A program made the position numbers and the translations under genes. From assembly GCF_000695095.2 (NCBI RefSeq), contig NZ_CP011454.1, forward strand, positions 496,001 through 560,000: 64,000 bases of DNA. Reading direction: 5' to 3'. The stretch is from Gemmatimonas phototrophica. Lineage in GTDB: Bacteria; Gemmatimonadota; Gemmatimonadetes; Gemmatimonadales; Gemmatimonadaceae. Below are positions 3,942 through 54,102 of the stretch, piece by piece (within the stretch, counting starts at the first letter, position 1; each line of letters starts with the position of its first letter). A model generated the notes under the pieces. That model ran no database searches. It was not told where the DNA came from and saw only the letters and a program-made list of their open reading frames with translations.

Positions 3942-5078
3942 CTACGCCCGCACCTGTGACTGCACCCCACGCGCGAACATGGCTTTGCCGATGCGACGCA
4001 GCCAGCCTGTGCGCTTCTGCGGCAGTGGCGCAACATCATCGTCGTCAAACAGCGACGCACGATACGGGGCGACGGCATGCTCGGCGTGCGCAATGACGGT
4101 GCGGACCTGAGCTTCGTCGAGTGGTTCGAACGGCTTGAAATGAAACGGGTGCCGCTTGGCGTCGTCCGCAAAAGCGTGAATGGCCGGGAACTCGCGCGAC
4201 AAGCGGGGCATGAGCTCCAAGACACTGGCCAGCAGCATTTTGGGGCTGGGTTGTTCGCCAAATGAATACTGCAGGTAACGATCCTGAGCGAGCCGCCAGA
4301 ACGCATCGGTAGCTTCATTGATGCTTACGGCATCGTACTCGAGCGCCGTGCACATGAGCCCCCAGAGCACATGCTGCTCGCGTCCCGACATATTGCGCGT
4401 GGGTGACTCGGGCGCCTTGTGCCAGTGGCGTAAAAACCCCCGGTCGAGCACGTAGCCGGTGGGAAAACCGTGGCGCCACATGCGGAGATTGAACTCGGTC
4501 CATTCACCCCAGAATTGCCGACGCGGATTGAATCCGCCGATATCCGAGAACAATCGGCGATAACCGGCGACCAGCATGCCTTGCACGGGCATGTAGCGTA
4601 TGCCATCAACATCCACGTGCGGCGTGGAGTCGCGGGGCTTGAAGCGCGTGTCGGTGTCTTCTTCGTACGACGGCAGTCCGACTATGCCGACCGGGCGCGT
4701 GCGGAGCGTGTCTTCGATGGCGCGCAGCACATCGCCATGCAAGGTGAGGTCATCGTCAATGAACGCCACCAGCGGTGTGCGACAGACGGACAGTTGCACG
4801 CGACGACCACCGCCAATGGTAGGATCGGTGGAGTTGATGTAGACCCGCACCGGAAGCGATGGCGCCATGGCGCGGATGCGCTGCTCCACGGCCATGGGTT
4901 CCTCGTCGGTGGCCGAGTTGTACACGATCACCACCTCGAAGGGCTGCCCGGTGGGCAGCACGGCGAGGGATTGCAGCAGCCGTCCCAGATACTCTACGCG
5001 TGATGGAATGGTGAGCATGGTGAACGTCCACCGCGGCGAGGTGGCAATAGCGCTGCCATTGGCAACCACCGATGCCAT
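3942..5078 (-). CDS. Family 2 glycosyltransferase (GT-A fold)
   Basis: Predicted cytoplasmic glycosyltransferase of 378 aa. It begins with the GT2-like strand FTMLTIPSRVEYL, carries the metal/nucleotide-binding FIDDDL (DxD-type) motif around residue 107, and has a WGEWTEFNLRMW acceptor-side motif. I place the start at 5078 because the upstream HAD gene stops there as TAATG. A longer in-frame ATG at 5141 would overlap that gene by 64 nt. It is the last gene of a minus-strand operon after nhaA and the HAD phosphatase. Donor and acceptor are unknown. Confidence 0.7.
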   Translation of the reverse strand: MASVVANGSAIATSPRWTFTMLTIPSRVEYLGRLLQSLAVLPTGQPFEVVIVYNSATDEEPMAVEQRIRAMAPSLPVRVYINSTDPTIGGGRRVQLSVCRTPLVAFIDDDLTLHGDVLRAIEDTLRTRPVGIVGLPSYEEDTDTRFKPRDSTPHVDVDGIRYMPVQGMLVAGYRRLFSDIGGFNPRRQFWGEWTEFNLRMWRHGFPTGYVLDRGFLRHWHKAPESPTRNMSGREQHVLWGLMCTALEYDAVSINEATDAFWRLAQDRYLQYSFGEQPSPKMLLASVLELMPRLSREFPAIHAFADDAKRHPFHFKPFEPLDEAQVRTVIAHAEHAVAPYRASLFDDDDVAPLPQKRTGWLRRIGKAMFARGVQSQVRA

Positions 5079-5956
5079 TACCGGGGTGCCCCAAGCAACG
5101 GCAGAACGCACGGAACGAGACGATCGAGCATTTCCATCCACCCTCCAGCCCCCTCGGCGTCGAGTACGACAACACCAGGGAGCGCGCTGAGCACCGGATG
5201 AGGACCCCGGTGCGGGTTGCGAATGACAAAGCCACGGTCGGCCTCCGCCAATAGTGACACGTCGTTTTCCTCATTGCCAATGGCTACAACCAGAGGAACT
5301 ACCCCATTGTTGCCAAATTGGTGCCGTAGCGCACACAATGCTGGGCCTTTGCCGCCCGCCGTGGTGAGGGTGAACCATCGCCCCCCCCTTCGCAACTGCA
5401 GCCCGCGGGCTGCGCTCACCTCACGCAGGTGGGATAACTCGGGTGGGGACCACTCGTGCGGGTCGAGTAACACGCTGTGCGTGCGCGCGTGCAGTGCCCG
5501 TCGCACCGCGGCACGGGTGCGAAAGCCCAGCGCCTGCAGTGCGCCGAACGGTTGTTGTTGTGTATCGGCGCGAATGAACGCGGGCTCATCTTGCATGCGC
5601 GCACGCAATTCCGTCGCGGTCAGTGCGTGCTCGAACGTACGGAGGGTCCGGCGTCCGTGTTGCTCGATGTTTGTCGTGTGCACGCCATCAGGGATGGTCG
5701 CCACGTCGAGCGCATGACGGGCGCCATCTTCGGCAATGCAAGGGCCGGGCAGGCCGAGTGCCCTCTGCAGCACCGTGAGCTCACGCAGTGTGCGACTGGA
5801 GGCCAGCCCCAGGTGCACCGGGCCGCCCCACTCGGCGGCAACGTGCCCCAACTTGTCGCGCAGCGCGGCCGGTGAGGCCGGGAGCGTGCCCTCGTCGCTA
5901 AGCAAGGTGCCATCGACGTCGCTGAGCAGCAACAACGGCACACGCAGCGGGGTCAT
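5078..5956 (-). CDS. HAD-superfamily phosphatase, mannosyl-3-phosphoglycerate phosphatase-like
   Basis: HAD hydrolase of 292 aa. The nucleophile motif DVDGT is at residues 14-18, a motif II-like ASSRT follows, and the acidic motif IV IGNEENDVSLL is near residue 225, as in Cof/MPGP-type phosphatases with a C2 cap. It would dephosphorylate a small sugar phosphate or glycerate compound in the cytoplasm. It overlaps nhaA by ATGA and is coupled to the glycosyltransferase by TAATG. That pairing suggests a two-step synthesis of a glycosylated compatible solute next to a Na+ exporter, which is inference only. Confidence 0.7.
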   Translation of the reverse strand: MTPLRVPLLLLSDVDGTLLSDEGTLPASPAALRDKLGHVAAEWGGPVHLGLASSRTLRELTVLQRALGLPGPCIAEDGARHALDVATIPDGVHTTNIEQHGRRTLRTFEHALTATELRARMQDEPAFIRADTQQQPFGALQALGFRTRAAVRRALHARTHSVLLDPHEWSPPELSHLREVSAARGLQLRRGGRWFTLTTAGGKGPALCALRHQFGNNGVVPLVVAIGNEENDVSLLAEADRGFVIRNPHRGPHPVLSALPGVVVLDAEGAGGWMEMLDRLVPCVLPLLGAPR

Positions 5957-7146
5957 TCCGGCACGGGGGTGCTAACGGCACCGGAGATGCTCGTGCGCGT
6001 GGCCATGCGCGCCAGCAGCGTAGCGCCAATGATGCCAGTGAGCAGGGAGCCAGCCAGCACGCCCACCTTGGCAGCGTCCAACTGCGCACTTTCTCCAAAG
6101 GCAAGCCCTGCAATGAAGAGCGCCATGGTAAAGCCGATCCCGCCCAGCACCGACACCCCGAACAGGCCACTCCAGCTGCAGCTGGTCGGGAGTTCGGCCC
6201 AGCGCATTTTTACCGCCAGCCACGCGGCGCCAAAGATGCCGAGGGGCTTGCCAATCAGCAGGCCAAGCATGGTGGCGATGACCGCGGGCTGTGTGGCAAA
6301 TGACGCCATATCCGCAGGGAGTGTGACGCCCGCGTTGGCCAGTGCAAAGACGGGGACGATGCCAAAGTTGACCGGTCGAGCCAGTACTTGCTCCAGCTGA
6401 TGCTGCACGCAGTGCGCGCCCCGCGAGGGAATGGTGATGGCGAGCAGCACGCCGGCGATGCTGGCGTGCACACCGGATTTGTACACGGCGATCCAGAGCA
6501 GCAGTCCGCCGATTACATAGGGCCACACGGTGTGCACCTGCTTCTTGTTGAGCCAAAGCAGTCCACCCATGATGGCCAGAATCGCGGCGAGTGCCAGCGT
6601 GACGACGCTCGGGGTGTAAAAAATGGCGATCACCACGACCGCGCCGATATCGTCGGCAATGGCCAACGCGGCGAGAAAGATGCGCAGCGGAGCTGCCACC
6701 CGGTCGCCGAGCAGCGCCACGATGCCCAGCGCGAAGGCAATGTCGGTGGCCATGGGGATCCCCCAGCCGCGCGTGGCCGGGGTACCCACTGCAACGGCGG
6801 TATAAATGGCGGCGGGTAAGAGCATGCCGCCCAAGGCACCCACCACTGGCAGTGCCGCCTGACGCACGGACGAAAGGGCACCGTCCTGCAGCTCGTGCTT
6901 GATCTCGAGGCCGACGAGCAGGAAGAACACGGCCATCAGGCCGTCATTGATGAAGTGCATGGCCGACCACCCGGCCACGTCCACATGCAACAGGTGATGG
7001 TAGCTGGCCTGCCAGGGAGAGTTGGCCCAGATGAGGGCGGCGGCTGCACAGAGCAGCAGCAGCAGACCACTGAGCGCCTGGCTCGGCGGTGGCGCCTTCT
7101 CGGAGACGTAACCTTCCTCGATATCCATCACATTTTCTTCATGCAT
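5953..7146 (-). CDS. nhaA: Na+/H+ antiporter NhaA
   Basis: Inner-membrane antiporter of 397 aa that exports Na+ in exchange for H+. Family hallmarks are visible: FFLLVGLEIKHEL, the ATDIAFALGI helix with the conserved Asp, and ALAIADDIGAVVVIA with the paired Asp residues used for ion transport. Length matches the family (380-400 aa). Two starts are possible, the ATG at 7146 or the ATG at 7128; the latter has a GAAGA stretch upstream. It is first in an operon with a HAD phosphatase and a glycosyltransferase. Confidence 0.93.
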   Translation of the reverse strand: MHEENVMDIEEGYVSEKAPPPSQALSGLLLLLCAAAALIWANSPWQASYHHLLHVDVAGWSAMHFINDGLMAVFFLLVGLEIKHELQDGALSSVRQAALPVVGALGGMLLPAAIYTAVAVGTPATRGWGIPMATDIAFALGIVALLGDRVAAPLRIFLAALAIADDIGAVVVIAIFYTPSVVTLALAAILAIMGGLLWLNKKQVHTVWPYVIGGLLLWIAVYKSGVHASIAGVLLAITIPSRGAHCVQHQLEQVLARPVNFGIVPVFALANAGVTLPADMASFATQPAVIATMLGLLIGKPLGIFGAAWLAVKMRWAELPTSCSWSGLFGVSVLGGIGFTMALFIAGLAFGESAQLDAAKVGVLAGSLLTGIIGATLLARMATRTSISGAVSTPVPE

Positions 7147-19783: not shown

Positions 19784-20719
19784 TCACAGAGAGGAGGGGG
19801 TCAGGACCAGCGGTGCCGTCAGCGTAGTGGAGAGCGTGGCGCCCGCCGACAGACAACGTTCGATGGTGTTGTTGCGTGCCGCCGCAATGGTGCCCGCCGC
19901 GGCGCCACCCGCGGCCCCGATGACGGCGCCTTTCGTGCCACCGCCCATAACGCGCCCTAGAATGCCACCGATGATCGCGCCGGTAATCACCTTCCCCTGG
20001 TCGCTGCCGCCTTTCGACACCTTCCGCTCGGTAACCGCGCCGTCCACCACGCGCACCGTGCCCTGGGCAGGGTAGAACTCTCCATCCACCTGCACCCCGC
20101 GCAGTCGGAACGACATCTCACCCGTCGTGGAATCGACCCGCGCCAGCTCCACCAGCACCGGGGTCCCCGCGGCCAGCAACGCGCCATCCGGGCTGGTCAC
20201 TTCCCGGTCGAGTGAGACAACAAAGCGGTCCCCCGGCCGGTTGGCTAACGAACAGATGGCGGCGTTGGTGGCGCCGCTGAGTTGCACCCCCTCGCCAATC
20301 ATCCGACCGCGAGGCACTGGCGCTGGCGTTGGCGCCTCGGCCACCGGCGTTGGGGCCGGTGTGGGGGCCGGGATTGCGGCGGTTGGTGCCGGGAGCGGCG
20401 CCGGCGCGGGGCGTGGGGTGCGCGGGGCAGCCGGTGCTGGCGATGGCACCGCGACGGTGGGGCGCGGCGACGGGCGCGGCGCGTCCGGCAGCGGCAGCGG
20501 GGCCGACGGCGAATTGCTCACCGCTGTATCGCCAATGGCCACGTTCGGGGTGGCCGACGACGCCAGCGTGAGGTCGCGTGACAACGCGGAGTCGATGGCC
20601 GCCGAGCGCTCAGGGCGCGCATCGCCACAGGCGGCAAGCAGCGCCCAGGCGCTGAAGCCTGTCGCCACGCGATATACCAAGGCCCGCCGCGGGGTCAACA
20701 CTCGAGGAAGTTGCGCCAT
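19784..20719 (-). CDS. Lipoprotein with proline/alanine-rich linker and glycine-zipper domain
   Basis: Envelope protein of 311 aa, family not recognised. The N-terminus has a lipobox LLAAC (Cys about residue 31) after a hydrophobic stretch. Then comes a ~90-residue Pro/Ala/Thr linker that probably spans the periplasm, a beta-rich domain, and a glycine-zipper membrane-inserting segment (GAIIGGILGRVMGGG, then GAVIGAAGGAAAG). The gene lies upstream of the ABC exporter, 10 nt from the ATPase gene, so one operon is likely. Confidence 0.65.
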   Translation of the reverse strand: MAQLPRVLTPRRALVYRVATGFSAWALLAACGDARPERSAAIDSALSRDLTLASSATPNVAIGDTAVSNSPSAPLPLPDAPRPSPRPTVAVPSPAPAAPRTPRPAPAPLPAPTAAIPAPTPAPTPVAEAPTPAPVPRGRMIGEGVQLSGATNAAICSLANRPGDRFVVSLDREVTSPDGALLAAGTPVLVELARVDSTTGEMSFRLRGVQVDGEFYPAQGTVRVVDGAVTERKVSKGGSDQGKVITGAIIGGILGRVMGGGTKGAVIGAAGGAAAGTIAAARNNTIERCLSAGATLSTTLTAPLVLTPSSL

Positions 20720-20854
20720 GGACTGGACGATAGTCGGAAAGAGGAGTGCTCCGCCATGCTTTCATGGGGGGCGCCCTCCCGGTTGTGTAAACATTCTGTC
20801 GGGTATCGTACGCCCGCGCCCGGTCCGCGTTCCCCCATTATTCGCTTTACTCGC

Positions 20855-22114
20855 ATGCGCTTCACCGATGTCGACGTGACGCCGCCGCCCACGGCGCAGC
20901 ACGTGTTCATCGCTCGTCAACCCATTTTCGACGGGCGCGACAGGCGCGTGGCCTACGAGCTGCTCTACCGGGCCAGCCGGGAAGCCACCCACGCCTACGT
21001 CGGTGATGTATCCCCCGCGCTGATGTGCGGGGATACGGCCCTGCATGCCCTGCTCTCCATTGGCCTGGAGAAGTTGACCGCCGGGACGCGGGCGTATGTG
21101 AATGTCACGGAAGAGCACCTGCTGGGGGAGCTGTACAAGATCTTTGACCCGGCTGCGGTGGTGCTCGAACTGCTCGAGACCGTAGACGGGTCACCGGCTG
21201 TGGTAGACGCCTGCCAGCGGGCGGTGGCCGACGGCTACACCCTTGCACTCGACGACTACGACGGCCGTGCCTCTCTGGACCCACTGCTGGCGTTTGCGAA
21301 AATCGTGAAGGTGGACGTGCTGGCCACTCCCGATATTCGCACGCTGGCGCCCATGGTGGCGGCGCTCAACGCGCGTGGCATCACGGTGCTCGCCGAACGG
21401 GTGGAAACGCAGGAGGCTCTCGCCGCCGCGCGCGACGCCGGCTTCGCGCTGTTCCAGGGGTACGTCTACAGTCGCCCGGAAACTCTGGACGGTCGCGCGG
21501 TCAATGTGCAGCAGGCCACCGTCTTTCACATCATGGCGCTGCTCAACGAACCGGACGCCACCGACGGAGCGCTGGAAGAGGCCTTTCGCAGCCACCCGTC
21601 GCTCTCCCTCTCGCTCCTCCGCATCGTCAACTCGGCGTCGTTCGGCGGACGCGGCGTGGATTCCATTCCGTATGCCATCCGTTTGGTGGGGCGCGAGGCC
21701 CTGTCGCGCTGGATGCTGATCATGCTGGTGGCCAGTGTCGGATCGCGCAGCCCGGTGGCGCACGAGGCCGTCATGGAAGCACTGGTGCGTGGTCGCTTCT
21801 GCGAAACGGTGACGGCCCAAGGCGCCAGTGGCGACCCGGCGGCGCGCTTCCTCGTTGGGCTGCTCTCGCGCATGGATACGCTGCTGGGGCTGCCCATGGC
21901 GCAGGTGCTGGAGCGTCTGCCGGTGAGCAATGATGTCAGGGACGCGCTGCTGGAGGGCACGGGCCCGCACGCTGGCGTCCTGCGGTTGGCTGACGCCTAC
22001 GAAAGCGCCGAGTGGGCCATGGTGGACATGCTGGCCACCGACACGCAACTCTCTTCGCTTTATGCGGAAGCGGTGACCTGGGCCAACGAACGGTTGGCCA
22101 AGATCACTAGCTGA
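20855..22114 (+). CDS. EAL-HDOD signalling protein, YuxH/CdgJ-like
   Basis: Cytoplasmic protein of 419 aa. It has an N-terminal EAL-like domain (ARQPIFDGRDRRVAYELLYR) and a C-terminal HDOD domain (about 215-400, SLLRIVNSASFGG...IPYAIRLVGREALSRWMLIML). The EAL motif reads ELL, the metal site DDYDGR replaces DDFGTG, and AERVET is kept, so c-di-GMP hydrolysis is doubtful, as in CdgJ relatives that regulate motility. The ATG at 20855 is chosen because the EAL domain starts soon after; the frame is open to 20711. It converges on motB across a hairpin. Confidence 0.8.
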   Translation: MRFTDVDVTPPPTAQHVFIARQPIFDGRDRRVAYELLYRASREATHAYVGDVSPALMCGDTALHALLSIGLEKLTAGTRAYVNVTEEHLLGELYKIFDPAAVVLELLETVDGSPAVVDACQRAVADGYTLALDDYDGRASLDPLLAFAKIVKVDVLATPDIRTLAPMVAALNARGITVLAERVETQEALAAARDAGFALFQGYVYSRPETLDGRAVNVQQATVFHIMALLNEPDATDGALEEAFRSHPSLSLSLLRIVNSASFGGRGVDSIPYAIRLVGREALSRWMLIMLVASVGSRSPVAHEAVMEALVRGRFCETVTAQGASGDPAARFLVGLLSRMDTLLGLPMAQVLERLPVSNDVRDALLEGTGPHAGVLRLADAYESAEWAMVDMLATDTQLSSLYAEAVTWANERLAKITS

Positions 22115-26329: not shown

Positions 26330-26875
26330 TCAGACCGTCCGGTTGACCAGCACGCCACGCGGGGCGCCGGTCGTGGGCGGCACGACGCCTTCCGAGGCGT
26401 ACGTGGACGGACTGGCCGGCGCACCGACCAGCGTGCGCACATGCGTGTCCGTGGTGGTCAGCGCTTCGCGCAGCATCTTCCGGTTCATGCCCACCTCGCG
26501 GGTCAGCATGTCGGCTGACTGCTGCAGACGGGCGCGCGCGTCGCGGAACCGATCATCTACCAAATCGCCCAGCAATTCCTCCACCTCGCGCAGCGTGCAC
26601 TCTTCGGTACCGCCCAGCAGCACGTTGAGCTGACGACGGCGCGTCCGGGCCTGCCCCAGCGTGGCGAGGATGCGGTGCGTGGCAAAGGTGCTGTCGTCGA
26701 CGCCCTGGATGTCGTCGGCAGCAACCGCCGTCCGCTGACGGCGCATCTGCGCGATGAGATCATCGAGCAAGCGCCGTTCGCTGATCAACGCGTCATGGAG
26801 CGCGTCGAGCAGTGCCGAGGACTGCAAGCCAACGCGTGACGCGGGTTCGTGTGCGTACAGAGTCGTGGGCGACAT
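26330..26875 (-). CDS. flgN: FlgN-like flagellar chaperone
   Basis: Predicted cytoplasmic helical protein of 181 aa. The region from about 20 to 140 is long amphipathic helix (LLDALHDALISERRLLDDLIAQMRRQRTAV), matching FlgN chaperones that escort FlgK and FlgL to the export gate. Position directly upstream of flgK supports this. The start at 26875 overlaps the flgJ stop as TGATG; a longer frame exists to 26971 but lies within flgJ. Sequence similarity to FlgN is weak, as is usual. Confidence 0.7.
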   Translation of the reverse strand: MSPTTLYAHEPASRVGLQSSALLDALHDALISERRLLDDLIAQMRRQRTAVAADDIQGVDDSTFATHRILATLGQARTRRRQLNVLLGGTEECTLREVEELLGDLVDDRFRDARARLQQSADMLTREVGMNRKMLREALTTTDTHVRTLVGAPASPSTYASEGVVPPTTGAPRGVLVNRTV

Positions 26876-27225
26876 CAGCGGGTGGTGTTGCTTGAAGGCG
26901 ACTGGGAAGACGAGGCCGCGACGCGACCCCGTAACTGGCGATAGACCGACTCGGCGAGACCGCCTTCCCATTGGCTTGGAGTTTCGGCAGCTAGGTGCTG
27001 ATCCAATAGTCCCGTGAACATGTCTTCTCCGGCGCTGGCTGAAACGATTCCGTCCTGCTGTGGAACGGTTTCGCGCATCGCCTTGAACAGTTGTTGCACA
27101 AACAGCCCCTCGAGCTGCTTGGCGGTCTCGCGCAGCTTCTGGTCGGTGGCCTGGTCAATGACCGGCGGCGTGGGCGCCGCGGTGGCGACATTCATGCGGG
27201 CGCGGGCTGCGATGGGATCGATCAT
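26875..27225 (-). CDS. flgJ: FlgJ-like rod-binding protein, hydrolase domain absent
   Basis: Protein of 116 aa with only the N-terminal rod-capping domain: KLRETAKQLEGLFVQQLFKAMRETVP and MFTGLLDQHLA are the signature. The C-terminal muramidase domain of enterobacterial FlgJ is missing, as in many non-gamma groups, so another peptidoglycan hydrolase must open the wall for the rod. The FliK-like protein at 45336 carries a peptidase domain. Overlaps flgI (4 nt) and flgN (TGATG). Confidence 0.85.
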   Translation of the reverse strand: MIDPIAARARMNVATAAPTPPVIDQATDQKLRETAKQLEGLFVQQLFKAMRETVPQQDGIVSASAGEDMFTGLLDQHLAAETPSQWEGGLAESVYRQLRGRVAASSSQSPSSNTTR

Positions 27226-38895: not shown

Positions 38896-40584
38896 CTACT
38901 TGAAGCTCTGTACCAGGCTGGTGATGGTCAGACTCCACCCATCCACGAGCACGAACAGCAGAAGTTTGAAGGGAAGCGAAATCATCGCCGGTGGCAGCAT
39001 GAACATGCCCATGCTCATCAGCACACTCGCCACCACGGCGTCGATGATGATGAAGGGCAGGTAGATCGCGAAGCCAATCTGAAAGGCGGTGCGCAGCTCA
39101 CTGGCCACGAAGGCCGACATGAGGACATGCAGCGGCACATCGTCCACGGTGGCGGGGCGCGGCATGCGACTGAGTTCCACGAACGTCTTCACGTCCGACT
39201 CGCGTGTCTGGCGCAACATGAATTCGCGCATGGGCTTCACGCCTTCTTTCATCATCTCCACCTGACTCATCTTGCCGTCGAGCCAGGGGGTAATGGCGGT
39301 GCGATTCATTTCGCTCAAGGTGGGTCCCATGACGAACCCGGTAAGCAACAGCGCCATGGCGGCCAGCAGCTGACCAGGTGGGGCGCTTTGGGTACCCATG
39401 GCCTGCTTGAGAAACTGCAGCACAATCAGGATGCGGGTGAATCCCGTCATCATGAGAATGAGCGTGGGGAGGAGCGTGAGCAGCCCCATCATCACCACAA
39501 TGCCCACGGTGCCGTTGAGTCGGAGGCCGCCGTCCTCGCCGTTGCCGCCGAGCTTCACATCCATCTGCGGCATCATGCGCATGATGGCGTCGTCGGCGGC
39601 GATGGGGGCGGGCGATGCGGCCTGCGCGGTACGCTTGGGGTCCTGCGCGGAGTCCACCACCATGGCGTTGGTGGGGCGCCGGGCGGCCGCGGCCTGCGCG
39701 GTCAGGTCGGCGCCATTGCCCGGACGGGGCGCCCGTGGCGCCACCGGGGCTCCATTGTTGATGATGCGCGCCGGCTGGCCCTTGGTGATGGGGGCCAGAG
39801 GCGGCAGATCGAGTGGCGGCAGGTCGATGACCGTTGGCGCCTGCGCCGCCGTAGCGGGCGTGCTGGCTGTCGCGGGTGTGGCGGCAGGCGTCGCGGTGAC
39901 GGCGGGTTGCGTGACGGGCGGTGTTGGCGGTGCGGCCTGTGCCGTCAGTTGCGAGGCCCCTGAGAACAGCAGGAGGCCGGCCAGGGCGACCAGGCGTGCG
40001 GCGGCCGAATAGGTGACCGGGGCGCCGTGGCGCGTGGTCAGTGGCGCGGTCAGGAAACGCGGAATCTCCGACCGTTCGGCGAGCGAGAAGGGGGCTACCG
40101 TGACGACGGGCGCCGACGCGGGCGCCTCTACTGCGGGAGCCGCCGTCGTCGTCACGGCCACTGGTGCTCCGATGACATCCTTCGCGATGGCCTTGCCCAG
40201 CATCGTGCCGAAGCGGGTCGCCATCCCTTCCCCTGGCAGCGTCGGGCTGAGCGACGCGAAGGCCGCGGTGGCTTCCGCGCTGGACGCCAACGGCTGCGGT
40301 ACGGTGCTGCTGGCAATGATGCGCTGCCGATCGGATTCCTCGAGTTCAAAGAGGGGGGTCACGGTGCCGTCGCAGACGGAAAGCGCGACGACCTTTTCGC
40401 CCACGCGCACCACGGTAAGGCCGGTCTTGGGGCCGAGCGGCACACGCTGCACGACCTCAACGGCCACGCGCGATTTGGGCCCAAGCGCGCCAGTGCCCCA
40501 GCGCTTGAGTGCCCAGAGGCACACTGCGCCAAGACCGAGCACAAAGGCGAGGGCCGCAACAACCCCGAGAACGGCGGTCAGCAT
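38896..40584 (-). CDS. fliP: FliO-FliP fusion protein, flagellar export
   Basis: A single open frame of 562 aa carrying two normally separate genes. Residues 1-85 are FliO-like: one membrane helix, then VAVEVVQRVPLGPKTGLTVVRVGEKVVALSV. After an Ala-rich stretch, residues 193-217 look like the FliP signal peptide (ALAGLLLFSGASQLTAQA), followed by a Pro/Ala/Thr linker. The FliP core starts at about 340 (GIVVMMGLLTLLPTLILMMTGFTRILIVLQFLKQAMG...MNRTAITPW...PFKLLLFVLVDGW). FliP forms the gate pore and FliO stabilises it. The two may be separated after translation by signal peptidase. Confidence 0.88.
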   Translation of the reverse strand: MLTAVLGVVAALAFVLGLGAVCLWALKRWGTGALGPKSRVAVEVVQRVPLGPKTGLTVVRVGEKVVALSVCDGTVTPLFELEESDRQRIIASSTVPQPLASSAEATAAFASLSPTLPGEGMATRFGTMLGKAIAKDVIGAPVAVTTTAAPAVEAPASAPVVTVAPFSLAERSEIPRFLTAPLTTRHGAPVTYSAAARLVALAGLLLFSGASQLTAQAAPPTPPVTQPAVTATPAATPATASTPATAAQAPTVIDLPPLDLPPLAPITKGQPARIINNGAPVAPRAPRPGNGADLTAQAAAARRPTNAMVVDSAQDPKRTAQAASPAPIAADDAIMRMMPQMDVKLGGNGEDGGLRLNGTVGIVVMMGLLTLLPTLILMMTGFTRILIVLQFLKQAMGTQSAPPGQLLAAMALLLTGFVMGPTLSEMNRTAITPWLDGKMSQVEMMKEGVKPMREFMLRQTRESDVKTFVELSRMPRPATVDDVPLHVLMSAFVASELRTAFQIGFAIYLPFIIIDAVVASVLMSMGMFMLPPAMISLPFKLLLFVLVDGWSLTITSLVQSFK

Positions 40585-42974: not shown

Positions 42975-44495
42975 TTACCGCTTGATGCCCATGAGCTCCT
43001 GCAGGAGCTCGTCGCTGGTGGAGACCACCTTGCCGTTGGCCTGGAAGCCGCGCTGCGCCACGATCATGTTCGTGAATTCCTGCGCCAGATCCACGTTCGA
43101 CATTTCGAGCGCACCGCTGGTCATCTGCGACTGCGACCCTTCCAGCGCAAAGCCCAGCACGCCGCTGCCCGAGTTGGCCGATTCCTGCAGCATGTTGTCA
43201 CCGATGCGGAGCAGACCCGACGGGTTGTTGAAGTCGGCGAGCACGATACGGGCGAGCGGCGACGTCGTGCCGTTCGTGAAGAAGCCCGTGATGAGCCCGA
43301 AGCGGTCAATCGAGAAATTCTGCAACGTGCCGGCCGTGTAGCCGTTCTGATCGCGCAGCACGGCGGTGGAGGCCGTGGAGGCAAACTGCGTGATACCGTT
43401 CACGCCGCCACCCAAGCTGAGGTCGATGCGCACGGGGTTGGCACCCGGCACCGCGAAATTGAGCGAGGCAATGACGTCCGTATTGAGAATACCTGCCTGG
43501 TCGAACGTGAACGTCCCGCTGTTTTCACTGGCCGTGGCGGTCGTGGGGCTCATGAAGTAGCCCACGCGAATCATGGAGTTGGACGGCATGTTCGACGTGA
43601 ACTGCACGGCCGGCGGCGGGCCCGCCGAAAAGGCGAAATCGGCCGGTGACACGTACTCCACACCAGTCGTGCTGTACACCTTTACGTTGGCATCAAGGAT
43701 TTCGTACCCGGCCGGCGGCGTTGGCAGCTCGATGTCGCCCGGCGGAGAGGACCCGTCCGTTTCCACTTCAAAGGTCTGCGCCGAGGCAATGGGATCAATC
43801 TGCCAATCCCACGAGTTCGGGCCCGTCTTCCACATCTGCAGCTTCACGTCGTGCTTCGTACCCTGCGAGTCGTACACACCGATTTGCGTTTCCGTCCACG
43901 CCTTCTCGTTGATGGGATCGGCGCGCACCAGCGGATCGGAGAAGTCGCCCTGAAAGACCGGGGCTGAGGCGTTGAGGTTGCCGGCGAGCGTCGCTTCGGT
44001 GGTGGGCTTGGCCGACACCTTCTGACCGAACGGCAACTTGATGTCCTGAATACCATCCAGCTGCAAGCCGTTGTTGTACATGCGGCCCTGCACGATGAAG
44101 CCGTTGGCAGGCGAAACGAGCTGGCCTTCCGCGTCTACCTGGAAGTTGCCGGCGCGGGTGTAAAAGCTCTGGTTGCCCTTGCGGACCACGAAGAACGAGT
44201 CGCCCTGAATCGCCACGTCGGTGTTGAGACCGGTGGTTTCAAGATTGCCCTGATTGAAAATCTGGTCGATGGATCCGATCTGCATACCGAGACCGATCTG
44301 CACCGGGTTGATACCACCCTGATCGCCAGGCGGACGGCTCGCGCCCTGCAGCAACTGGGCGAACCCTTCCTTGAAGGTGACGCGACCGGCCTTGAAGGCC
44401 ACCGTGTTCACGTTGGCGATGTTGTTACCGATGACGTCCATGCGCACTTGGTTGTTGCGCAGGCCGGAAACGCCGGCATAGAGGGAGCGAAGCAT
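42975..44495 (-). CDS. flgE: Flagellar hook protein FlgE
   Basis: Hook subunit of 506 aa. N-terminal motif LYAGVSGLRNNQVRMDVIGNNIANVNTVAFKAGRVTF and C-terminal LAQEFTNMIVAQRGFQANGKVVSTSDELLQELMGIKR are canonical. The central domains (about 150-400) are variable. The last gene of the flgB operon. Confidence 0.96.
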   Translation of the reverse strand: MLRSLYAGVSGLRNNQVRMDVIGNNIANVNTVAFKAGRVTFKEGFAQLLQGASRPPGDQGGINPVQIGLGMQIGSIDQIFNQGNLETTGLNTDVAIQGDSFFVVRKGNQSFYTRAGNFQVDAEGQLVSPANGFIVQGRMYNNGLQLDGIQDIKLPFGQKVSAKPTTEATLAGNLNASAPVFQGDFSDPLVRADPINEKAWTETQIGVYDSQGTKHDVKLQMWKTGPNSWDWQIDPIASAQTFEVETDGSSPPGDIELPTPPAGYEILDANVKVYSTTGVEYVSPADFAFSAGPPPAVQFTSNMPSNSMIRVGYFMSPTTATASENSGTFTFDQAGILNTDVIASLNFAVPGANPVRIDLSLGGGVNGITQFASTASTAVLRDQNGYTAGTLQNFSIDRFGLITGFFTNGTTSPLARIVLADFNNPSGLLRIGDNMLQESANSGSGVLGFALEGSQSQMTSGALEMSNVDLAQEFTNMIVAQRGFQANGKVVSTSDELLQELMGIKR

Positions 44496-44526: not shown

Positions 44527-45336
44527 TCAGCCGCGAATCTGCGTGAGCTGTGACATGGGCAACGTGAGACTGTCGCCGATAATCAGGATGGGGTTCCCAT
44601 TCTCGTACTTCATGCCGGTGATCCGACCGGCCGTGTACGTCTTGACTGTCTGGTACTGGCCGCCATCCGTTGCGACCTCGAACTTGTAGCTGTACTTCCC
44701 GGCGGGCAGCTTGGGCTCCGTGAAGAGCGATCCCAGCTCGAACGACTGTTGCCCCGCCTTGTCCACCGTGACGAACGCGCTGCCAACCACCGTGCCTTTG
44801 CTGTCGGTGATCGTCACTTTGGCCGGCCCTGTGCGCACACCGGTATCCACCACCAGTGTGCCCTGTCCTTCGCGATCGACGAAGGTGGTGTTGCCCACGG
44901 TCACGCCGGTTTTGCCAACCGTGGCCATGGCCATTTGCCCTTCCACGAGCTGCGCCAGTTCATCGGCGCGCGCATTCTGCGTTTCCTCGAGCTTCGAAAT
45001 GGCGTCGGCGACCTTGTCGTCCTGCCCGGCCTGTGCTTCGAGGGTCTTGTTCATCTGGATCAGCTGCTCCACAGTGGAGAACTGGGCGAGCTGCGCCGCC
45101 ATGTCCTTGCCATCCATCGGATTGAGCGGATCCTGATTCTTGAGCTGGGCGACGAGCATCTTGAGGAACTCGTCCTGGCCCATGGCCCTGCTGTTCTGCG
45201 GGAGTGTCCGCGGCCCCGACGGCTCGGCGGCGCCGACCGGTGGTTCGGCGGCGGGTACGCCGGTACTGCTGGTGCCATCGGCCGCCGTCGTGTTGAAGGC
45301 GGGAAACGCGATGGTGTTGCGAAGTGCCGAGATCAT
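44527..45336 (-). CDS. flgD: Flagellar hook assembly protein FlgD
   Basis: Hook cap scaffold of 269 aa. The N-terminal MGQDEFLKMLVAQLKNQDPLNPMDGKDMAAQLAQFSTVEQL is the family hallmark. The C-terminal half has the FLIG-like/Tudor beta domain (PAGKYSYKFEVATDGGQ). Start overlaps the fliK stop as TGATG. Confidence 0.95.
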   Translation of the reverse strand: MISALRNTIAFPAFNTTAADGTSSTGVPAAEPPVGAAEPSGPRTLPQNSRAMGQDEFLKMLVAQLKNQDPLNPMDGKDMAAQLAQFSTVEQLIQMNKTLEAQAGQDDKVADAISKLEETQNARADELAQLVEGQMAMATVGKTGVTVGNTTFVDREGQGTLVVDTGVRTGPAKVTITDSKGTVVGSAFVTVDKAGQQSFELGSLFTEPKLPAGKYSYKFEVATDGGQYQTVKTYTAGRITGMKYENGNPILIIGDSLTLPMSQLTQIRG

Positions 45337-47498
45337 CAGAGGTTCTCGAAGAGGAAATCGGGCTGACGCGAGCGCTGCTGACGCTCCTGCTGCTCGCGCT
45401 GGTCACGTGCACGCGCCGCCTGATCCCGGCGCGACTCATCCTGGTTCCACTCACGCGACGGCGCGCGATCGCGCTGTCCGTTGTTGGCGGTGCCATCCTG
45501 CGCCGACGACTGCTGCGCGCCGTTCACCTTGAGGGCATCACGCTCGGCGTTGACGGCACGGACCGCCTCACTGCTGTCCGGCGCCTTCAGGCCGCTGATC
45601 TTCACCGTATCCGCTTCCAGTCCGTGACGGCCCAGCGCTTCCTGCAGATCCGCGGTGCGCAGACGCATCCGGTCGGCGGTGGCCGCATCGGTGGTGATCT
45701 GCGTGCTCACCGTATTGCCGCGCAAATCCACCGTAACCTGCTGGTTCACGCCGTTGGCGCCTTCCACGTTCAGCGTCATCCGATTGAGCGGCGTGGCCGG
45801 CGCGTCGGCGCGCATTTGCTGAATGTCCGACACGCGTTGTGCCTGCTCGCTTCCGGCCGCGGGACTCGCCTGCGCGGCGCGTTCAATACCCGTGACACTG
45901 GGGCTGTTCACGGTACCGGTCGACGTACCAAACGCAGGGGTGCCATCCTGCTGTTGTTTCTCGTGGCCCAGCTTGCGGCCATTGTTGAGTGGCTTGCCCT
46001 GTTCGTCGCGTTCCCCGCGGCCGAAGGCGTTGCCGTTGCCTTGTCCATCCGGGGTCCGCGATGTCTGCTGCTGGGCCGCATAGGCGGCAACGCCCACGCT
46101 CGGGGCGTCGGTGGCGGGAGCCGCGTCGGCCACACGGGCCACGCCAGCCACCTGCGCCACACCGGCCACCTGGGCTACACCGGCCGCGCTGGCCGGGTTG
46201 GCCATCTGCGCGCCGCGTGCGGAGGCCTGCGCCGACGCCTGGAGGCGCTGCGCATCAACGCGCGCCGTCAGATCGGCGGGCATGCCATTCCCCTTGGCCA
46301 ACTCAAGATGGCCGGGGTCCTGCATTCCCAACGTGCGTAACCCCTCTTCGCGGGCAATACGCTGCAGTCGCGCAAAGCCATCGGGATTATCCCACGAGCC
46401 ATCGATGATCACATCCACCGCTTCGCCACGCGTATGCGCGGAGTCGCGGGTCCAGGTTACCACCGGGCCACCGCGTGTGCGCCCCTGCTCGTACAGCCAA
46501 TCCTGCCGTTCCTGTGAGCGGGCACTTTCCACGACTTTCACATCGTGACCGTATTCATTCTTCATCCGCTCCACGACCCGTTCCACGCGGGTGCGCAGCT
46601 CGGGAGCAACGGCTTCCAAATCTTTGACGGGTGTGGTGGGGTTGGCCGCACTGGCAGCGTTGGCGGCGGCGAGCGCCGAGGCGTGTGCGGCATGGGCCAT
46701 GGCCGTGGCTGACGCGTGCGCCGTGGCGTTCAGGGCTCCGTTGGCATCGTTGTCGTTCCACGACGGTGCTCCCTCCACCGCGGCGCCCTCGCCAGTGAGC
46801 GACGCGGCGGCGGTATCCGCCATGATCATCTGTGCTGCCCGTTTGGCATCGGCCAGCCGGATTCCCGTGGGGGTGCCCGCCTGCGCGAGGATGGAGTCGA
46901 TGATAGCTCGCGCGTCGGCACCCTTGGCATCACCAACGGCCAGCAGCTGCTCCAAAGAGGCTCCGCGGCGGGTGGCAACGCGATTCAATGCATCCAGTGC
47001 CCGTTCGTTTTCATGACCGCTCAGGTTCGAGGCGGCACGGGCCAGGCCGGCGAGTCCTGCCAGGCCGTTGCGCTTCTCGTCACGCGCCTTGGAGTACGCC
47101 GCCAGATCCACGACATCGGTTGTGCGGTTGTCTGACGCCGCCTCCTGTGGTAACACCTTGAGCATGCCATATCGCAGCGCTTCCTGCGCGGCGTCCTGTG
47201 ACGTGCTGCCGCTCGCGGCTTCCTCCAGCAACGGTCCTTCCAGCAGCGTGTCCACGAGCGTGGCGCTCTCGTCCGGCTGTTGTTGCGCGAGTTCACCGCG
47301 GGCCTTTTCGCCTTGCCCGTTCAGCAGCGCCAGCAGCGCCGCGAATTCAGCGTTGTTGACGCGCGGAGTGTCATCCCTGTCGCTGCTTTCGCGGGTGTCG
47401 CGAACGGGCTCGTCGCGCGCAACGCGGTCGGCTCTTGGCGCGGCCGCACGCGGCGCGGGTGCCTTGGGGATCGCCTGCATGATGTTCATGGCGCTCAT
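45336..47498 (-). CDS. fliK: FliK-like hook-length protein with embedded M15 peptidoglycan peptidase domain
   Basis: Protein of 720 aa at the fliK position. The C-terminal Flg_hook-like domain is at about 570-635 (MTLNVEGANGVNQQVTVDLRG...LRTADLQEALGRHGLEADTVKISG). Inserted at about 298-400 is a VanY/CwlK-type M15 peptidase domain: VVESARSQERQDWLYEQGRT, then SAHTRGEAVD with putative zinc ligands His355 and Asp362, and DPGHLEL with His397. The rest is Ala/Gln-rich disordered sequence. Hook-length control normally needs only a ruler and the Flg_hook domain. The peptidase could open the wall for the rod, as the FlgJ here has no hydrolase domain. Confidence 0.88.
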   Translation of the reverse strand: MSAMNIMQAIPKAPAPRAAAPRADRVARDEPVRDTRESSDRDDTPRVNNAEFAALLALLNGQGEKARGELAQQQPDESATLVDTLLEGPLLEEAASGSTSQDAAQEALRYGMLKVLPQEAASDNRTTDVVDLAAYSKARDEKRNGLAGLAGLARAASNLSGHENERALDALNRVATRRGASLEQLLAVGDAKGADARAIIDSILAQAGTPTGIRLADAKRAAQMIMADTAAASLTGEGAAVEGAPSWNDNDANGALNATAHASATAMAHAAHASALAAANAASAANPTTPVKDLEAVAPELRTRVERVVERMKNEYGHDVKVVESARSQERQDWLYEQGRTRGGPVVTWTRDSAHTRGEAVDVIIDGSWDNPDGFARLQRIAREEGLRTLGMQDPGHLELAKGNGMPADLTARVDAQRLQASAQASARGAQMANPASAAGVAQVAGVAQVAGVARVADAAPATDAPSVGVAAYAAQQQTSRTPDGQGNGNAFGRGERDEQGKPLNNGRKLGHEKQQQDGTPAFGTSTGTVNSPSVTGIERAAQASPAAGSEQAQRVSDIQQMRADAPATPLNRMTLNVEGANGVNQQVTVDLRGNTVSTQITTDAATADRMRLRTADLQEALGRHGLEADTVKISGLKAPDSSEAVRAVNAERDALKVNGAQQSSAQDGTANNGQRDRAPSREWNQDESRRDQAARARDQREQQERQQRSRQPDFLFENL

Positions 47499-48175
47499 GG
47501 CGTAGGATTCCCGGGCGATTTCACTGCGCCCTTGGTAATGGCGGCCGCGCGGCCGGCGGAGAACGCGGAGAGAATGGCCGCGGCCTGCCGGTCGTTCATC
47601 ATGGCGAGAATGGCGCGCACATCGCCGTCGGTCATCTGATCGAGGACCTTGGCGGCATCCTTGGGGGCCATGGCGCCGAAGATCTTGGCCAGGCGCGCTT
47701 CGGGCAGGGCCGTCTGCAAGGCCTGATCGCGGGCATCCTTGACCGATGCCGCCGCGGACGACGTCGTGGACGGCTTGGGGGTTGGCGGGGCAGGCGTCGA
47801 CGTGTGCGACTCGGCCTTGGCCGGTGCAGGGGCATGTGCGGAGGCACCGCGTGCGGCGGGGCCGTGATCGGCCGGCGCGTGGGAGGTCCCTGCCTTGCGG
47901 GCCGCTTCGAGAGCCCGGAGGCTGTCGGCCGGTGTCATGGGCGCCTGCTCGGCCAGCAACGTGCTGTCGGCCGCGCCGTGAGCGGTGCTGTCCTCGCCTG
48001 CCGCGTGTTCCGTGCTGTCGTGCGCCGCTGAATCGGCGTGCGTCTTGAGGCTGTCGGCAATCCGCGTGGAATCAGCGACGTACTTGGCGGAGGCCTTCAT
48101 GTACGAATAGCCAGATCCGCCGCCGATGCCGGCCAGCAAACCAATGACTATGGGGATGATCATCGCCTTCATCAA
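47495..48175 (-). CDS. MotE-like flagellar protein with MgtE N-terminal-type domain
   Basis: Protein of 226 aa. It has an N-terminal membrane helix (AMIIPIVIGLLAGIGGGSGY), a long Ala/Ser/His-rich periplasmic linker, and a C-terminal MgtE_N/FliG-like helical repeat (LPEARLAKIFGAMAPKDAAKVLDQMTDGDVRAILAMMNDRQAAAILSAF). MotE-type proteins in this position help stator function or export chaperoning in other phyla. Overlaps fliK by ATGA. Confidence 0.72.
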   Translation of the reverse strand: MMKAMIIPIVIGLLAGIGGGSGYSYMKASAKYVADSTRIADSLKTHADSAAHDSTEHAAGEDSTAHGAADSTLLAEQAPMTPADSLRALEAARKAGTSHAPADHGPAARGASAHAPAPAKAESHTSTPAPPTPKPSTTSSAAASVKDARDQALQTALPEARLAKIFGAMAPKDAAKVLDQMTDGDVRAILAMMNDRQAAAILSAFSAGRAAAITKGAVKSPGNPTP

Positions 48176-48196: not shown

Positions 48197-48673
48197 TCAC
48201 TCGGCATTCTCTGCCGAGCGGCTGTTCTTTTCTTCCTGCTTGCGGGCAAACTGTGTCAGGGCCACTTCGTCCATCTGCACCCGATCCTTCGTGGCTTCTC
48301 CCGTGCGCCAGACATCGGTGTGGCGCTCCTTCAGTCGGTCGAGAACCCGTCGATCACGTGCGGCTTCTTCCAGCATCGCTTTTGCCTTGTGCACACTGGC
48401 ATCTGCGGCCTTGCAGACGTCGCCGGCGATCACCAGCCGCTCATCCAGAGAAGCGAGAACTGTGCCAAGCTGATGCAGGTGGCCAACGCGCGCCTCGGAC
48501 TGCGTGGTGGCGTGGAGCTGTGCCACCGAATTGGCGCGGAGGGCGGCCAGGGACTCCTGCGCTTCGGCCGCTTCATCAGCGGTTTGCTGGGCTGACGCCA
48601 GCTGCCGGGCCTTGGCCTGCTCATGCTGTTCGCGCAACTCGAGGATGCGCTGCAAACGGAACTTGAAGCTCAC
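48197..48673 (-). CDS. fliJ: Flagellar export chaperone FliJ
   Basis: Coiled-coil protein of 158 aa that links FliI to FlhA. It begins with FKFRLQRILELREQHEQAKARQLASAQ, the family N-terminal pattern, and is almost wholly helical. The start is GTG 48673, immediately before the fliI stop. Confidence 0.88.
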   Translation of the reverse strand: MSFKFRLQRILELREQHEQAKARQLASAQQTADEAAEAQESLAALRANSVAQLHATTQSEARVGHLHQLGTVLASLDERLVIAGDVCKAADASVHKAKAMLEEAARDRRVLDRLKERHTDVWRTGEATKDRVQMDEVALTQFARKQEEKNSRSAENAE

Positions 48674-53721: not shown

Positions 53722-54102
53722 TTAGGCGCGGACATCGAGACGAACACCGCGCGCCGCGGGGGGCGTCTGCGGTTCCGTGGCGGCCTTGAAGCGGCTGTAC
53801 GTGAGCGGGCCGAGGTTGGCGGTCTTGGCAAAGAAGTTCCGCTCCTCGGTGGTCAGCACACTCCAGAACGCGGGGTCGGTGCCAGCCGGTGCGTCAGCGG
53901 GCACGATTGACTGCGCGGCGCCTTGTCCGGCGATGGGCGTCTGCGGCTTGAGCGCATTGGCGTTGGCCGTGCGCGCCTGCTGGGTGGCCAGGCTCGCACG
54001 ATCAAGGCCGTTCTGGCCAGCATTCTGCGTGCGCGCCGACTCGGCGCGGTTGGCGCCGAGGTTCGGGAGCAGCGGAGTGGAGTTGATGCCGTTGATGCTC
54101 AT
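53722..54102 (-). CDS. Unrecognised small protein of the flagellar operon
   Basis: Protein of 126 aa between flgC and fliE. The N-terminal half is Asn/Gln/Ala-rich with no signal peptide. The C-terminal half has the only ordered-looking stretch, DPAFWSVLTTEERNFFAKTA-NLGPLTYSRF, ending with RGVRLDVRA. It might be exported or an anti-sigma/regulatory peptide (FlgM is not found elsewhere), but it does not look like FlgM and I do not assign a function. Confidence 0.6.
   Translation of the reverse strand: MSINGINSTPLLPNLGANRAESARTQNAGQNGLDRASLATQQARTANANALKPQTPIAGQGAAQSIVPADAPAGTDPAFWSVLTTEERNFFAKTANLGPLTYSRFKAATEPQTPPAARGVRLDVRA

Follow-up and report, generated by a model that had tools for sequence, protein, structure and literature searches.

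A conserved M15-type peptidase domain within the flagellar ruler FliK of a large branch of Gemmatimonadota and its possible role in cell-wall passage

How does a flagellar rod pass the cell wall when FlgJ carries no hydrolase, and what would a peptidase domain do inside the hook-length ruler FliK? Both questions are raised by the flagellar gene cluster of Gemmatimonas phototrophica, which has a single polar flagellum (PMC9862903). The cluster was read in a 64,000-nucleotide stretch of the complete 4.72-Mb genome (G000:C1:496001-560000), referred to here as the window; positions are counted from its first letter. To our knowledge, wall passage by flagella with a hydrolase-less FlgJ is settled in only few species, and the open-access literature yielded no earlier description of a peptidase domain in FliK. 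An initial annotation, made from the sequence, had proposed that FliK contains an M15 peptidoglycan peptidase and could combine ruler and wall-opening roles or harbour a transplanted hydrolase. A FliK with an embedded, conserved M15 domain and a FlgJ without hydrolase were indeed found; replacement of the FlgJ hydrolase accounts for the pattern only in part.

The fliK locus and the identity of its product

The gene neighbourhood comprises fliF-G-H-I-J, a motE-like gene, fliK, flgD, flgE and fliL-M-N-O/P. At its start fliK shares 4 nt with the motE-like ORF upstream, and at its stop it shares 1 nt with the start of flgD. The features used below are as follows.

45336–47498, minus strand: fliK, an ORF of 720 aa with an embedded M15 peptidase domain, in the order motE-like, fliK, flgD
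46647–47498, minus strand: FliK residues 1–284, poorly conserved N-terminal export/ruler region (dN/dS 0.19–0.49)
46293–46631, minus strand: FliK residues 290–402, M15-type zinc peptidase domain (assigned by sequence, profile, fold and conservation)
45804–46292, minus strand: FliK residues 403–565, low-complexity linker (dN/dS 0.12–0.51 for residues 403–560)
45579–45803, minus strand: FliK residues 566–640, C-terminal substrate-specificity-switch (Flg_hook / T3S4) domain (PF02120 in 36/38 relatives; folds 2rrl, 5cuk)
44527–45336, minus strand: flgD, hook cap (PF03963, E 9e-24)
42975–44495, minus strand: flgE, hook (PF06429, PF07559, PF00460)
47495–48175, minus strand: motE-like gene (MgtE_N domain; PF03448, E 1e-6)
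48197–48673, minus strand: fliJ (PF02050, E 3e-11)
26875–27225, minus strand: flgJ, 116 aa, rod-binding domain only, no hydrolase (PF10135)

The position of the gene, between fliJ with the motE-like gene on one side and flgD on the other, is that expected of fliK, as annotated initially. The proposed Flg_hook match of the C-terminal region was weak in the window protein alone (18.3 bits, under the 29.8-bit cut-off of PF02120) and clear in its relatives, of which 36 of 38 were matched by the same model (best E 5e-13). Residues 566–640 were modelled by AF2 at pLDDT 88.3. Among solved folds, 2rrl (C-terminal domain of FliK) and 5cuk (switch domain of PscP) ranked first and second for this model, with modest Z values of 6.5 and 6.4; the weight rests on the identity of the top two folds together with PF02120. 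The fold comparison was needed here, as a profile of the C domain run against PDB sequences returned unrelated hits only. By its C-terminal domain and operon position, the 720-aa product is a genuine FliK, and the same evidence rules out a misnamed endolysin gene.

The protein shares with Salmonella FliK and with T3S4 rulers such as PscP the C-terminal switch fold, divergent N-terminal and linker regions and the lack of a signal peptide, as well as the gene position beside flgD and flgE. It differs in having a conserved domain of about 110 residues, the M15 peptidase domain, in the ruler region. A hydropathy scan found neither a Sec signal peptide nor a hydrophobic segment in FliK (maximum 15-aa hydropathy 0.85 within the first 60 residues), which is consistent with flagellar type III export.

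Several other genes of the window were noted. The motE-like protein (47495–48175, minus strand) has an MgtE_N / FliG-like domain, and in nearly all relatives its gene separates fliJ from fliK. A 126-aa protein without any Pfam match is encoded between flgC and fliE (53722–54102, minus strand); it occupies the same place in most loci with an M15-type FliK and also in family f2, and is an unnamed flagellar protein of Gemmatimonadota. A single 562-aa ORF (38896–40584, minus strand) holds both a FliO and a FliP domain, an apparent FliO-FliP fusion; most relatives likewise have one ORF here. A gene for an EAL and HDOD domain protein (20582–22111, plus strand) adjoins motA/motB.

The M15 domain and its conservation

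The window protein alone matched PHROG endolysins at E 2.8e-13. In Pfam, the isolated window domain stayed below the cut-off of PF08291 (E 0.0077; 16.9 bits against 23.2), and 35 of 36 relatives were matched at E<=1 (best 3e-5). A profile of the 36 relatives recovered LysB4 (2e-12) and Ply500 (5e-12) among PDB sequences. Structure prediction agreed with this assignment. The AF2 model of residues 285–405 had a pLDDT of 90.5 and a pTM of 0.84, and Foldseek placed Ply500 first (E 6e-7). In VIA alignments Ply500 was again closest (Z 12.8, rmsd 2.6 over 110 residues), followed by LysB4 (12.6), LysECD7 (12.4) and ChiX (12.1).

The M15 pattern named in the initial annotation, with His355 and Asp362 within SAHTRGEAVD and His397 within DPGHLEL, is correctly numbered. 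These three residues and Asp394 align with the H-D-H zinc set and the DxxH base of LysB4. The roles of the H-D-H zinc ligands and of the DxxH base are established in Ply500-type enzymes. The corresponding codons are listed here.

46434–46436, minus strand: His355, putative zinc ligand in SxHxxGxAxD (36/36 copies; 63/63 in the species scan)
46413–46415, minus strand: Asp362, putative zinc ligand (36/36; 63/63 in the species scan)
46317–46319, minus strand: Asp394, putative catalytic base of DxxH (36/36; aligns with the D of LysB4 KDYPHFEL)
46308–46310, minus strand: His397, putative zinc ligand (36/36)

The domain thus shares its fold and the SxHxxGxAxD and DxxH motifs with the M15 L-alanyl-D-glutamate peptidases Ply500, LysB4, LysECD7, endoT5 and ChiX. 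Those enzymes are free lytic or secreted proteins, whereas the domain in FliK is compact and forms part of a type III export substrate. As to a possible phage origin, phage proteins match the domain at 34–50% identity over 45–76% of its length, and a scan of viral_contigs with a narrow pattern found no relative.

Conservation was assessed in 36 copies chosen by similarity of the whole protein and not by motif. All 36 retain His355, Asp362, His397 and Asp394, and also R327, Q332, S353 and G358. Ten pairwise comparisons were made for dN/dS, and the M15 part, computable in nine of them, was the most constrained region of FliK at 0.056–0.122. The ratios elsewhere were 0.19–0.49 in the N-terminal region, 0.12–0.51 in the linker, 0.15–0.37 in the C domain and 0.22–0.68 in the tail; all are rough, as dS was near saturation in several comparisons. 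Nearly the same order was given by dN alone (0.07–0.16 for the M15 part, 0.12–0.78 elsewhere). Judged from these substitution rates, the M15 domain is under strong purifying selection. Conservation, synteny and dN/dS rule out chance or an ORF artefact, and a degenerate domain is ruled out except in one genome, G039, described below. The M15 domain in FliK is apparently intact and catalytic.

The same data bear on the idea of a non-catalytic module that binds peptidoglycan or a rod or hook protein, or that folds outside the channel, pulls FliK and so sets ruler timing. M15-like folds can be binding modules, as the related hedgehog fold among the fold hits illustrates, folding-assisted export is conceivable, and G039 survives with a decayed domain. 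However, binding or folding alone needs no DxxH base, and the invariance of the zinc ligands and the catalytic Asp in 36/36 copies, with strong purifying selection, makes a module of this kind unlikely.

Distribution of the domain and of other wall hydrolases

The fusion is not confined to one genome. FlgD marks 54 flagellated genomes among 200 sampled Gemmatimonadota; FliK matches were obtained in 46 of the 200, and 42 of these carry the M15 fusion. The other four comprise two unrelated non-flagellar M15 proteins (G032, G179), one copy cut by a contig end (G169) and the decayed copy of G039. In G039 (L049, ORF 4833–6554, minus strand) the M15 region is recognisable at E 1e-10 and contains no stop codon, and HxxGxAxD is gone. 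The flagellar operon is otherwise intact, and this is a natural loss. The M15 domain is absent from all four readable FliK of family f2, which belongs to the same order, and from all three of family f10, from an outgroup class. The genome of a close relative encodes a separate M15-like protein outside its flagellar cluster (L057, G019:C1:2654936-2655238, plus strand).

About 85,000 prokaryote species (GTDB, one genome each) were scanned with the pattern L[GW]x[RK]D[PA]GH[LVI]E, which more divergent fusions in other phyla could escape. The scan gave 63 relatives, all 63 in a flagellar operon and nearly all named as Gemmatimonadota. H355, D362, S353 and G358 were present in 63/63; only these four count as independent in that set, since D394 and H397 are part of the pattern. 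Two M15-FliK flagellar operons (L148, L192) come from MAGs that bear the names Kuenenia and Planctomycetota; as their operon is that of the other loci, these contigs are probably mis-assigned.

In a tree of seven flagellar proteins, made by a quick method with SH-aLRT support only, f2 is sister to f1+f4+f5 (SH-aLRT 99). Placed on this tree, the M15 trait implies two changes, one gain in the ancestor of f1, f4 and f5 and one loss in G039.

The lack of a hydrolase in FlgJ, as first annotated, was borne out: the 116-aa protein has a rod-binding domain only. This architecture is found in all 36 genomes of f1, f4 and f5 that were read, and 43 of the 49 FlgJ read, which are all those of f1, f2, f4 and f5, are of this kind. 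The six FlgJ of f10 (L088, L090, L094, L098, L102 and L113) carry a C-terminal SLT transglycosylase domain, not a glucosaminidase (Pfam SLT E 8e-22 and 1e-23 in two of them). No FlgJ-type glucosaminidase domain was found anywhere in the G. phototrophica genome, and no other wall hydrolase among the scanned ORFs of the flagellar cluster and its flanks in the window. The genome has two SLT genes, both at 2.72 Mb and so remote from the flagellar genes (0.50–0.56 Mb). As read from gene content, the M15 lineage is without a known flagellar glycan cutter, and so is f2.

These patterns lend partial support to the proposal that the M15 domain is a transplanted hydrolase in place of that of FlgJ. The f10 genomes fit, with SLT in FlgJ and no M15 domain in FliK. 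A FlgJ swap as the full explanation is ruled out by f2, which has flagellar genes but neither a FlgJ hydrolase nor M15 in FliK, and the domain has decayed in G039. It follows from both cases that flagella in this phylum do not strictly require the M15 domain, and that another hydrolase can suffice.

It is very unlikely that the domain merely supplements a housekeeping wall opener, such as a genomic SLT, with a modest gain in faster or better-placed assembly. Such an arrangement would fit the apparent making of flagella without M15 in f2 and G039, the two SLT genes of this genome, and the separate transglycosylases that do the job in Rhodobacter and Borrelia (PMC7277832, PMC8517470). However, the SLT genes lie well away from the flagellar cluster, the M15-less f2 has them too, and the strong constraint on the M15 domain argues for a real fitness effect.

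A candidate wall opener in the ruler

The FliK of this lineage is rather likely to serve as both ruler and wall opener, its peptidase reaching the growing rod by way of the flagellar type III channel. Measuring the hook and switching substrates, the usual tasks of FliK, would fall to the C-terminal switch domain together with the variable N-terminal region and linker, and the M15-type metallopeptidase domain would be exported within FliK by the same channel. It must cross that channel unfolded, a point against the proposed role. FliK exported before the rod has left the periplasm would be released into that space, and the M15 domain would fold, bind zinc and cut peptide bonds of the peptidoglycan (L-Ala-D-Glu or a cross-link) beside the growing rod. 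That M15 enzymes cut peptides, and not glycan strands as FlgJ and SLT enzymes do, is a further point against the role, although peptide cutting may loosen the mesh next to the rod. The M15-bearing FliK could in this way help the rod through the wall, which FlgJ, having no hydrolase, cannot open. Once the rod is past the outer membrane, FliK would be released outside and the cutting would end by itself.

This sequence of events has a parallel in Salmonella, where FliK is secreted continuously throughout rod and hook assembly (PMC13344023). A FliK-Bla fusion reaches the periplasm and folds actively there before outer-membrane penetration, and folds improperly when released outside (PMC13344023). 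The behaviour of this fusion suggests that a natural peptidase-FliK would enter the periplasm during the rod stage but not afterwards.

The domain might instead be catalytic but act later or elsewhere, with FliK outside the cell cutting shed or neighbouring peptidoglycan or trimming outer-wall material at the hook or P ring, and contributing nothing to rod penetration. In the course of hook growth FliK also enters the medium by secretion, and the domain is related to phage endolysins, which are lytic enzymes. Few FliK copies are exported per flagellum, however, the domain is fixed in one clade within FliK and was never seen as an export substrate of its own in the loci read, and improper folding outside, as in the Salmonella fusion, would also count against it. 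Action of this kind is therefore improbable, and the combined ruler and wall opener is preferred.

Among known systems, the FlgJ of Salmonella, with its glucosaminidase, and the FlgJ-SLT of f10 are likewise flagellar type III substrates that carry a wall hydrolase for rod passage. The difference is that in those systems the hydrolase cuts glycan and belongs to the rod cap, FlgJ, whereas the enzyme found here is a peptidase within FliK and FlgJ is without a hydrolase. Where FlgJ is without a hydrolase domain, wall-opening activity is provided by SltF in Rhodobacter and BB0259 in Borrelia (PMC7277832, PMC8517470). Both are separate lytic transglycosylases, SltF using the Sec route, whereas the M15 domain is built into FliK. 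Sec-exported SltF can spread through the periplasm, which poses a control problem (PMC7277832), and FliK-borne delivery would solve it. With the peptidase in the ruler, the enzyme would arrive at the right place and moment, and no free autolysin in the periplasm would be involved. If the proposed role is true, this would be a third route past the wall, besides bifunctional FlgJ and separate SltF-like enzymes, and an example of a folded enzyme carried naturally in the ruler region of FliK, as one is carried artificially in Salmonella FliK-Bla.

FliK would then also be the bacterial equivalent of those phage tape measure proteins that contain a lysin. The tape measure protein of mycobacteriophage TM4 is described as having a peptidoglycan hydrolase motif (PMC1796659). 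Both are molecular rulers that pass through a tube and carry a wall hydrolase; the TM4 protein is an unrelated ruler that acts at phage infection, and the likeness is by analogy only.
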